Assembly: GCF_002287075.1 (NCBI RefSeq) | Contig: NZ_NSKE01000001.1 | Span: 434,001 to 498,000 of the forward strand | Direction of reading: 5' to 3' | Origin: Fodinibius salipaludis | Lineage (GTDB): Bacteria; Bacteroidota; Rhodothermia; Balneolales; Balneolaceae | DNA: 64,000 nt | Shown: piece after piece, positions 6,824 to 11,241 of the stretch | Numbering within the stretch: position 1 is the first letter of the stretch | Layout: each line of letters opens with the position of its first letter | Translations under genes and position numbers: made by a program | Notes under the pieces: generated by a model | What the model saw: only the letters and a program-made list of their open reading frames with translations | Database searches by the model: none | What the model was told of the DNA's origin: nothing

Positions 6824-8311
6824 CTACACTTCGGATGTCAATGTCATTTTAATACGTTCAATTTCACGCCGAATGTTATCCTTTTCCATTGCCTTGTCGA
6901 ATCGCTGCCCATTAATAAATAGATTATTGGTATCGCTCACTCCACTACGAACTCCGGAGCGCCGGTCCTCCAGCACGCGCTCCCTGTTTTCTTCGGCGAA
7001 CATTTCTTTCTCAAACCGATCGGTGTCCAAGTTTACGTGACGAGCACATTTAATGAGGTTTTCATCTTCCAGATGATTTTGATGATCAAATAGTTCGTCA
7101 TGCATTTCCCAAAATTTACCTTGGTTGGCGGCGGCCTCTGCAGCCATGCCCGCGTTTTCGGCATGCGGATGTCGACGGCTAAGCGGAAGATGACGATAAA
7201 CATATCGGATATGCTTATCCTCCTGCATTATTTCATCTACCATCTTGTAGATTCGACGACTGGTTACACATTCATAGTCCCCATACTGCAAGAGCGTAAT
7301 TTCTGCATCACCGTTTCCACGCCGATGGTCTTCGTCAATGACAGGGGGCTGTAATGTATCATCCGTTTCTTCTTCTTGGTTCTCATTGGAATGCGGACGA
7401 CGAATAAAATCCGGCAGCGTTGTATTACGACCAAACAGCCATTCTTTCCATGTAAGCTCAAGCTGGCCACAATCCCGATCGGGAAAGCGACTCTGCCGTG
7501 TTTGCGAATAATTAAGCATAGCCACCAATATTACCCCACCCACTGTATTCCCCAGCGTAACTGCAGAAAAGAAATATCCAAAATGACTCCATCCAGCTAA
7601 CCCCTGAAAAATCAAATAAAGCACCTCACAAGCGCCGATAATACAGTGGAATAAATCAGCTATAGGAATGAGATACATCAGTATAAATACAATAGCGATA
7701 CGAGCCATAGCATCTCTTACGGCGTGGGTCAACCATACCATCGAGGCTACGATCCATCCGGCCAATACCCCCTTCCAAAACAGATCATTCCAAGAAACAC
7801 TTAGGGCATGTTCTCCAAAGCCCCGAGCCACTTCGGCTGTTTCAGGTGCAAAAATACCTGTATTGGCCAACACATACGCCAAGGCCCCAGCACCAACTAC
7901 ATTTGCAAATAGTACAATACCCCAAACTCGCAATAGCGCGGGTATACTGGCAATCCGTGTGAGCACGTGCGTAACAGGAGTAAGGGTATTTTCGGTAAAC
8001 AGCTGATATTTACCGGCTACAATCAGTATAAATCCCAGTGGATATAACATATTTCCAAGGAACAAAGAGGACTCTGGCCCTACAGCACTTGTCATCGCAG
8101 AACGGGCTACAAACGTAAGACCGATAGAGAGTCCCGCAGCTATACCGCTTAAAAAAAGAAGCCGTGCAGAACGGCTAAAATCTTCATCGGCTGTGGCTAC
8201 AATGCGATGGAAAATTTCATCCGTTGAAAATATATCACGAACAGCTCGTCCTCCTGCCGGAGCACCACTTTGAGACTGGTCAATTTGTTCCTTGATATCG
8301 TCTTCCTTCAT
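6824..8311 (-). CDS. Formate/nitrite-type channel fused to a degenerate DsbA-like domain
   Basis: A 495-residue fusion. Residues about 25-285 match the formate/nitrite transporter (FNT, YfdC-like) fold with six hydrophobic helices (for example GNMLYPLGFILIVAGKYQLF and GNTVGGVILVAML). After a charged linker (about 286-330), residues 335-490 match the DsbA-like thioredoxin domains fused to some NhaA antiporters (LLQYGDYEC, RHLPLSRRHPHAENAG, QGKFWEMHDELF, LFINGQRF). The expected CxxC reads CVTS (348-351), and the cis-Pro position reads Asn462, so disulfide chemistry is unlikely. I infer a regulatory or binding role for the tail on a channel for a small anion. An 8-bp hairpin sits just upstream (8340-8367). 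Monocistronic. Confidence 0.88.
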   Translation of the reverse strand: MKEDDIKEQIDQSQSGAPAGGRAVRDIFSTDEIFHRIVATADEDFSRSARLLFLSGIAAGLSIGLTFVARSAMTSAVGPESSLFLGNMLYPLGFILIVAGKYQLFTENTLTPVTHVLTRIASIPALLRVWGIVLFANVVGAGALAYVLANTGIFAPETAEVARGFGEHALSVSWNDLFWKGVLAGWIVASMVWLTHAVRDAMARIAIVFILMYLIPIADLFHCIIGACEVLYLIFQGLAGWSHFGYFFSAVTLGNTVGGVILVAMLNYSQTRQSRFPDRDCGQLELTWKEWLFGRNTTLPDFIRRPHSNENQEEETDDTLQPPVIDEDHRRGNGDAEITLLQYGDYECVTSRRIYKMVDEIMQEDKHIRYVYRHLPLSRRHPHAENAGMAAEAAANQGKFWEMHDELFDHQNHLEDENLIKCARHVNLDTDRFEKEMFAEENRERVLEDRRSGVRSGVSDTNNLFINGQRFDKAMEKDNIRREIERIKMTLTSEV

Positions 8312-10104: not shown

Positions 10105-11241
10105 GTGATTTCCAAGACATCGCTAACTCTCATTGCTGTCTCAATAGTTCTGTGTATCTCCTGTACTGCAGAAAAAAACGAAGCAGTATTTTCTGTGAAA
10201 GGAAAACTAAATAACATCGATACCGAGCAGGTGCTGTTGTATCAAGCGAAAGGTTTGAACGCTAATCAGTTCGATGTCATGGATACCCTGTCGATAGATG
10301 CTGATAGTACATTTTCATCATCCTATAGTCTTGAGCCTCATTATTACCGTTTAAGTATTCACGACTCCCTGCATGTGCCCTTTATTGCTGATTCCGGGCA
10401 ACAAATTACAATGAATATTCCCGCTGAAGGTGAGTATGAAGTATCTGGTTCCCCAGACACAGAACTTTTTGAGGAGTATGAAAAATTTCGCATGGAGGTT
10501 TTGAGAGAAACGGTGTACCCGGTAAGAGGACAATTGGATGATTTACGGGAAGAAAATAACCCGGAAGATGCCGAACGTATTGAAAAGCTTGGGGAACGTG
10601 TGCTAAAGGCAGAAGAAAGTTATCGGGATACCCTCATACACGCGGTAAAAAAAATGGGTACATCTATCGCCATTTATCCGACCATGGTTCGTTGGAAAGG
10701 CGATAAACATATAGATTACTATGAAGGACTGGCCGCTGATTTCTCAGAACAACATAAAGGGCTTGAGGTGGCTGAATTGGTATCAGAGAAAATCAGAACA
10801 TTAAAGCAGGTTTCCATCGGCGACAAAGTTTCAGAAATAGTCGCTCCGGATACGTCCGGTGTGGAGCGGTCTCTTTATAATAATCTCGGCAAGTACACAT
10901 TGATAGATTTCTTTGGTAGTTGGTGTGGCCCCTGCCGGTCAGAAAGTGACCATCTGGGAAAAATGTATGACCAATACAATAGCTCGGGATTCGAGATTTT
11001 CGGCTTTGGCATTGAGTATGAAAAAGACAGATGGATCCGAGCGATTAACAAGGACAACAGAACCTGGATAAATGTATCTACAGTTGACGGTTATTCAAAT
11101 GACATTGCTGAAGCCTATTCCATAACGGCGATCCCCAAAAATTTTCTTGTCGATGAGAACGGAATCATAATCGCTAAAGATATTCATGGCCAAGAACTTA
11201 AAGAGAAACTTGAGGAGTTGTTTTCTGAACAATCACAATGA
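10105..11241 (+). CDS. TlpA-like thioredoxin-fold lipoprotein
   Basis: A 378-residue exported protein starting at GTG. The lipobox is CISC with Cys20. Residues about 26-130 form a beta-rich DUF4369-like domain, 140-235 are helical, and 238-375 form an AhpC/TlpA-type thioredoxin domain with the redox motif WCGPC (Cys274, Cys277) in FFGSWCGPCRSE and a cis-Pro at 344 (AIPKNF). It probably acts as a thiol:disulfide oxidoreductase at the membrane, reducing or reshuffling disulfides in exported proteins, as in other Bacteroidota DUF4369-TlpA proteins. Its substrate is unknown. It is not linked to the ccm operon at 30.7-34.5 kb. Monocistronic. Confidence 0.92.
   Translation: MISKTSLTLIAVSIVLCISCTAEKNEAVFSVKGKLNNIDTEQVLLYQAKGLNANQFDVMDTLSIDADSTFSSSYSLEPHYYRLSIHDSLHVPFIADSGQQITMNIPAEGEYEVSGSPDTELFEEYEKFRMEVLRETVYPVRGQLDDLREENNPEDAERIEKLGERVLKAEESYRDTLIHAVKKMGTSIAIYPTMVRWKGDKHIDYYEGLAADFSEQHKGLEVAELVSEKIRTLKQVSIGDKVSEIVAPDTSGVERSLYNNLGKYTLIDFFGSWCGPCRSESDHLGKMYDQYNSSGFEIFGFGIEYEKDRWIRAINKDNRTWINVSTVDGYSNDIAEAYSITAIPKNFLVDENGIIIAKDIHGQELKEKLEELFSEQSQ

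Follow-up and report, generated by a model that had tools for sequence, protein, structure and literature searches.

The gene at positions 6824..8311 of the window (the whole analysed stretch of 64,000 nucleotides) is an open reading frame on the minus strand, which also carries every feature of the protein described below. From its ATG start it encodes 495 amino acids, in which a channel of the formate/nitrite transporter (FNT) family is fused to a thioredoxin-fold (Trx) domain. The channel domain (residues 32–268, 7508..8218) matches the Pfam profile Form_Nir_trans (PF01226) with an E value of 8.5e-50 and 169.8 bits against a cut-off of 34.6, and the match is full-length, covering 1–239 of the 240 profile positions. 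It is followed by a conserved juxtamembrane tail, RFPDRDCGQLELTWKEWLFG (residues 275–294, 7430..7489), which contains Cys281, by a variable linker (residues 295–318, 7358..7429) and by a DsbA-like domain (residues 319–495, 6827..7357). Within the latter, Thioredoxin_4 (PF13462) matches residues 327–485 with an E value of 4.4e-15, and DSBA (PF01323) matches more weakly (4.4e-7). All three profiles score above their curated Pfam cut-offs, while the NhaA domain (PF06965) is absent, PF01226 being the only transporter part. The fusion is the sole FNT gene of its own genome, which is 99% complete. Elsewhere in the window, a protein with DUF4369 and a TlpA/ResA-like thioredoxin domain is encoded at 10105-11241 on the plus strand; it is unrelated to the fusion.

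In the PDB, the sequence relatives of the N-terminal half are FNT channels and those of the C-terminal half DsbA-like proteins. An AlphaFold2 model built from a 46-sequence alignment reached a mean pLDDT of 86 and values above 90 over most of both domains; low confidence is found chiefly at the N-terminus and in the linkers 272–283 and 298–315, the latter falling below 50. Residues 28–273 superpose on solved FNT channels with a best Z of 32 and an rmsd of 1.7 Å, and HSC (Z 32), FocA (Z 31) and LciA all align at Z 31–32 with an rmsd of 1.7–2.0 Å. Residues 319–491 superpose on the DsbA-like oxidoreductase 3gyk with a Z of 21.4 and an rmsd of 2.3 Å; 3gyk, BdbD and ScsC fit the Trx part of the model at Z 20–21, within a range of Z 17–21 for DsbA-like structures. 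These sequence and structure matches far exceed chance. The initial annotation, which had proposed an FNT-type channel joined to a thioredoxin fold and suggested structure prediction of the full protein as a check, is thereby borne out: both folds are confidently predicted, the FNT fold is present in the first 285 residues, and the scaffold motifs it had named (LLQYGDYEC, HPHAENAG, KFWEMHDELF and LFING) all occur in the reading frame.

To define the channel type, FocA-equivalent positions were assigned via the alignment with 3kly. The S-loop His222 (7646..7648) is equivalent to FocA His209 and invariant in the fusions described below. The omega loop, KYQLFTENTLTP (residues 101–112, 7976..8011), places Lys101 at the position of FocA Gly86, Leu104-Phe105-Thr106 at 89–91, Glu107 at Ser92 and Asn108 at Thr93; outside this loop, Tyr90 corresponds to Phe75, Phe94 to Leu79 and Gly185 to Asn172. 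His222, Leu104 and Thr106 are characteristic of the FNT family as a whole. Glu, Asn, Gly, aromatic and basic residues at those FocA positions are traits of the YfdC subfamily (PMC5525234), and the fusion has Glu at 92, Gly at 172, a basic residue at 86 and an aromatic one at 79. By these residues the channel part is a YfdC-type FNT and a predicted anion channel. With the YfdC-type channels (PF01226; YfdC-alpha and YfdC-beta, PMC5525234) it shares the fold, the invariant S-loop His, the omega-loop Leu-Phe-Thr-Glu-Asn, the Gly at the Asn172 position and aromatics at those of Phe75 and Leu79. Known FNTs have short tails, whereas the fusion carries the Trx domain instead. A transporter list of 2024 still has yfdC as uncharacterised (PMC10971958).

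The most distinctive part of the protein is the active site of its Trx domain. Here, the CxxC site has become CVTS (residues 348–351, 7259..7270), and the cis-Pro loop reads DTNN (residues 460–463, 6923..6934), with Asn462 at the cis-Pro column. Whole-protein rather than motif searches recovered ten full-length C-terminal FNT–Trx fusions from Balneolaceae, the Salinibacter family and one Salinibacter ruber plasmid, spanning two families of one phylum. The window protein (CVTS with N at the cis-Pro column) is joined by G010 (CETS/K), G005 (CETS/N), G073 from another genus (CPTS/N), G390 (CPTS/A) and five proteins with CPTS/S, namely those of G009, G408, G515, G506 and plasmid pSR116 of Salinibacter ruber M1. 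All ten share the signatures C-(P/E/V)-T-S and (T/S)-(N/K/S/A)-N; none varies at Cys348, Thr350, Ser351 or Asn463, Ser replaces the resolving Cys throughout, and N, K, S or A occupies the cis-Pro column. Compared with a DsbA-like dithiol oxidoreductase, the fusion domain therefore has the fold (by Pfam, AlphaFold2 and structural alignment) and lacks both the CxxC pair and the cis-Pro loop. It corresponds instead to a TMX5/ERp44-like monothiol site, in which the nucleophilic Cys348 is kept and the resolving Cys is replaced by Ser351.

The two altered motifs had been correctly placed by the initial annotation, and their conservation in all ten fusions of the same domain order answers its question of whether they are conserved or sporadic. 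Its description of a domain that has lost its redox residues was, however, overstated: the resolving Cys and cis-Pro are gone, but the first, nucleophilic Cys remains. Likewise, the fold has been kept as claimed, while the chemistry has not simply been lost. The invariance of Cys348, Thr350 and Ser351 indicates a site turned monothiol rather than dead.

The combination also stands apart within the wider family. Among 141 Trx-domain matches (a table that includes some redundant copies, and to which the fusions L169, L170 and L195 were added afterwards), a residue other than Pro at the cis-Pro column is confined to the fusions. Outside them, CxxS occurs only in CPYS or CPFS proteins of a Kef-linked clade with cis-Pro retained, and CxxT in three entries. 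L051, L058 and L122 (from Ktedonobacter, a Chloroflexi MAG and Dictyobacter) are standalone Trx proteins with CPYT and an intact cis-Pro; they form a small clade in which the resolving Cys was lost separately.

The Trx domain of the fusions is under purifying selection. Pairwise omega is 0.06–0.17 for this domain compared with 0.03–0.10 for the FNT domain, and in nearly all pairs it is highest in the linker region. All ten reading frames are open, 38 Trx residues are invariant, and a surface outside the active site, comprising RHLPL and FWxMH, is conserved throughout. Decay in a single strain was ruled out by the conservation in ten fusions together with these omega values. Retention of the attacking Cys alongside loss of the second Cys and cis-Pro in every fusion argues for a conserved, probably regulatory module and not for a decaying enzyme. 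Exactly two Cys columns are invariant, 348 and 281. The latter, located just after TM6, is also present in seven of the nine FNT-only orthologues read, so its conservation need not concern the Trx domain.

In a Trx tree computed without the active-site columns, the ten fusion domains form one clade (support 100/98), whose sister, with moderate support (86/90), is a group of cytosolic Kef-linked CPYS proteins (L006–L010, L035–L043). Like the fusions these have Ser in place of the resolving Cys; unlike them, they retain cis-Pro and are encoded by a separate gene that generally adjoins an antiporter gene. At the loci read, the CPYS gene mostly overlaps an upstream gene for a Kef-type antiporter (Na_H_Exchanger/TrkA_N, Pfam-checked on one example), and several precede a gene with a cyclic-nucleotide-binding domain (likewise checked on one example); L010 departs from this pattern and has different neighbours. 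In the Balneolaceae loci L006, L008, L009 and L035–L043 the CPYS gene overlaps the antiporter gene and is followed, where read, by the cNMP-binding gene. These CPYS proteins constitute a conserved transporter-linked monothiol Trx of Balneolaceae.

The reverse order, Trx–FNT, with CxxC and cis-Pro intact, occurs on haloarchaeal plasmids and in Natrialba. These proteins, from Natrinema, Halostagnicola, Halocatena, Halosolutus and Natrialba, belong to the same FNT subfamily and the same Trx family as the window fusion but differ in their N-terminal, unaltered Trx domain, which forms another clade (98/91). The idea that the haloarchaeal and the bacterial fusions arose independently was dropped as a conclusion from the Trx tree alone, since a joint clade was not rejected (AU p 0.46). 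Two of the haloarchaeal genes deserve separate mention. Compared with its counterpart in Natrialba taiwanensis (L046), the gene of Natrialba aegyptia (L045:5740-7581) appears to be split by some 110 inserted bases that include a stop. In Halocatena salina (L196:3803-5485) the FNT is annotated from 4538, but the sequence immediately upstream encodes, in the same frame, a Trx domain with CPSC; a Trx–FNT fusion has probably been annotated too short.

The same Trx family is also attached to NhaA antiporters in both orders (NhaA–Trx and Trx–NhaA; L055, L047). There the transporter differs, and CPYC or CPHC and cis-Pro are intact. The kinship with the NhaA-linked domain noted at the outset thus finds support in the Trx matches, the fusions and the Trx tree. 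Taken together, the Kef-linked genes, the reverse haloarchaeal fusions and the NhaA fusions indicate that this Trx domain is a recurrent companion of membrane transporters. Compared with DsbA/Thioredoxin_4 oxidoreductases such as 3gyk, BdbD and ScsC, with which it shares the fold and the scaffold motifs, the fused domain has neither resolving Cys nor cis-Pro and would sit on the cytoplasmic end of a channel.

This placement follows from FNT topology. The termini of FNT channels are cytoplasmic (PMC5572259), so a C-terminal Trx domain should lie near the cytoplasmic mouth. In FocA and NitM the C-terminal tail influences or regulates transport, and PflB docks onto the N-terminus of FocA (PMC5572259). 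CxxS proteins of the Trx fold such as TMX5 are natural trapping mutants; in TMX5 the site, which has no resolving Cys, forms long-lived mixed disulfides (PMC11443168). TMX5 and ERp44 resemble the fusion in their CxxS site, and TMX5 also in being membrane-attached (PMC11443168); they are PDI-family proteins of the eukaryotic secretory pathway, unlike the fusion, to which they have no particular kinship. In DsbA, replacement of cis-Pro abolishes efficient turnover and leaves the fold in place (PMC13269488).

A structural, sensing or gating role of the Trx domain, as initially suggested, is conceivable, and our preferred reading, inferred from these precedents with a probability of roughly 0.4, is that of a cytosolic monothiol module that does not turn over but traps or senses a partner and tunes the YfdC-type channel. 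Its ancestors would be cytosolic dithiol proteins associated with transporters, and it would have been converted to a monothiol form. Cys348 may then act as a nucleophile whose mixed disulfides or S-thiol adducts form slowly and persist; the partner might be a low-molecular-weight thiol, a protein of the cytosol, the Trx domain of a neighbouring subunit in the pentamer or, possibly, the protein's own Cys281. Flux through the pore would be adjusted as the Trx domain docks at the cytoplasmic mouth or leaves it. In a more specific and rather doubtful version, the five monothiol domains of a pentamer would capture a thiol partner or their own Cys281 and so open or close the pore as a thiol switch. 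A Cys281–Cys348 tether, considered as the main claim, was demoted to one option because most of the FNT-only orthologues read keep Cys281 too.

The chief rival is a purely docking role, in which the Trx fold would be a redox-independent scaffold or binding surface for a protein of the cytosol, with Cys348 retained for reasons of packing. The cis-Pro loop of DsbA anchors the substrate Cys, and P151T DsbA forms no stable mixed disulfide (PMC13269488), so loss of cis-Pro could equally weaken covalent capture instead of prolonging it. Both the missing resolving Cys and the missing cis-Pro would be expected of a scaffold, the conserved RHLPL and FWxMH surface outside the active site could be its interface, and PflB on the FocA N-terminus provides a precedent (PMC5572259). 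Against it stands the invariance of Cys348 and of the Thr and Ser at +2 and +3 in all ten fusions, where many other positions vary, and we regard docking alone as somewhat unlikely. An enzyme resembling monothiol glutaredoxins, with Cys348 turning over at the channel mouth and an external thiol as resolver, appears less probable still: although monothiol glutaredoxins classically show CxxS, the second Cys being Ser, the cis-Pro that is absent here is more strongly conserved than CxxC across Trx folds (PMC2757866), and turnover is impaired by its substitution (PMC13269488). The sister Kef-linked clade, with CPYS and cis-Pro retained, also counts in favour of such an enzyme.

The anion loop of R773 ArsC reads Cys-Gly-Thr-Ser-Arg, with a His four residues ahead of the Cys. 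By analogy, the C-x-T-S(-R) site at a helix N-terminus might bind the transported or a related oxyanion, making the domain an anion sensor. Its host is an anion channel, CxTSR is found in seven of the ten fusions, and E. coli ArsC is listed as a Trx-fold CxxS site (PMC2757866); however, the Arg is absent from L003, L004 and L031, and the ArsC-loop His is Gly in the fusion, which makes this reading improbable. Hardly any weight falls on a metal or Fe-S binding module enabled by loss of the cis-Pro, whose usual effect is to keep metals from binding. Su et al. counts in its favour, but each Trx domain has one invariant Cys and no obvious second ligand was identified. Similarly remote is neutral decay of a once-active domain on its way to loss. 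In the FNT tree, fused channels as one clade were rejected (AU p 0.003), with FNT-only orthologues nested between the fused ones. More than once, then, the Trx domain has either been lost or passed from one FNT gene to another, and its being dispensable or exchangeable over evolution also weighs against the preferred reading. Several FNT-only proteins resemble the fusion into its linker, up to residues 318–339 (tblastn), which favours loss, probably repeated; Trx remnants downstream of FNT-only genes were not found by tblastn. Where the domain is present, though, the low omega, the 38 invariant residues, the ten open frames and a coherent new signature in place of scattered changes all speak against decay.

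We found no description of FNT–Trx fusions in the open-access literature, an absence that is in itself weak evidence, and nothing useful on NhaA–Trx fusions in a mainly open-access search. The text of the FNT family survey leaves fused domains unmentioned, and annotation pipelines label these proteins simply as “formate/nitrite transporter family protein”. The parts are known; their combination with a conserved monothiol site without cis-Pro appears to be new. The literature treats cis-Pro as universal in catalysis by the Trx fold (PMC13269488); the fusions, in which the attacking Cys persists under purifying selection while cis-Pro has been consistently replaced, offer a natural experiment on the purpose of this residue. 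They also suggest that YfdC-type channels, as yet uncharacterised, receive a regulatory input, within a wider pattern of one DsbA-like domain repeatedly joined to FNT, NhaA and Kef-type transporters. Should the thiol switch prove true, the CxTS/TxN site would be a further use of the Trx fold, with its origin in dithiol companions of transporters.

A conserved gene neighbourhood or operon was not found among the fusion loci examined, which likewise counts against the preferred reading, and deriving the substrate from the neighbourhood was abandoned for that reason. In the genome of the window, formate dehydrogenase gave only weak, partial matches, and the gene adjoining the G009 fusion is one that we take, by eye, to be a cystathionine gamma-synthase/lyase-like gene. 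Among the reverse fusions, that of Halosolutus stands after redoxin and DsbA genes, and the Halocatena copy, alone in this respect, adjoins two formamidase genes and an AmiS/UreI transporter, a hint at formate in that lineage.

Further unusual members of the Trx family were encountered. In one genome, a DisA_N-like diadenylate-cyclase domain is fused to an intact DsbA-like Trx domain (CPYC and cis-Pro, Pfam-checked), and a second genome of that genus has an open frame of similar length, matched in its Trx part (L138:1486-2673 and G489:C21:6477-7040). G008, of the same genus as the genome of the window, retains the remnant of a related Trx gene, disrupted by a frameshift (L197:3334-3857). Finally, a single protein (L118:5104-7764) contains four tandem DsbA-like Trx domains, all with CPFC.
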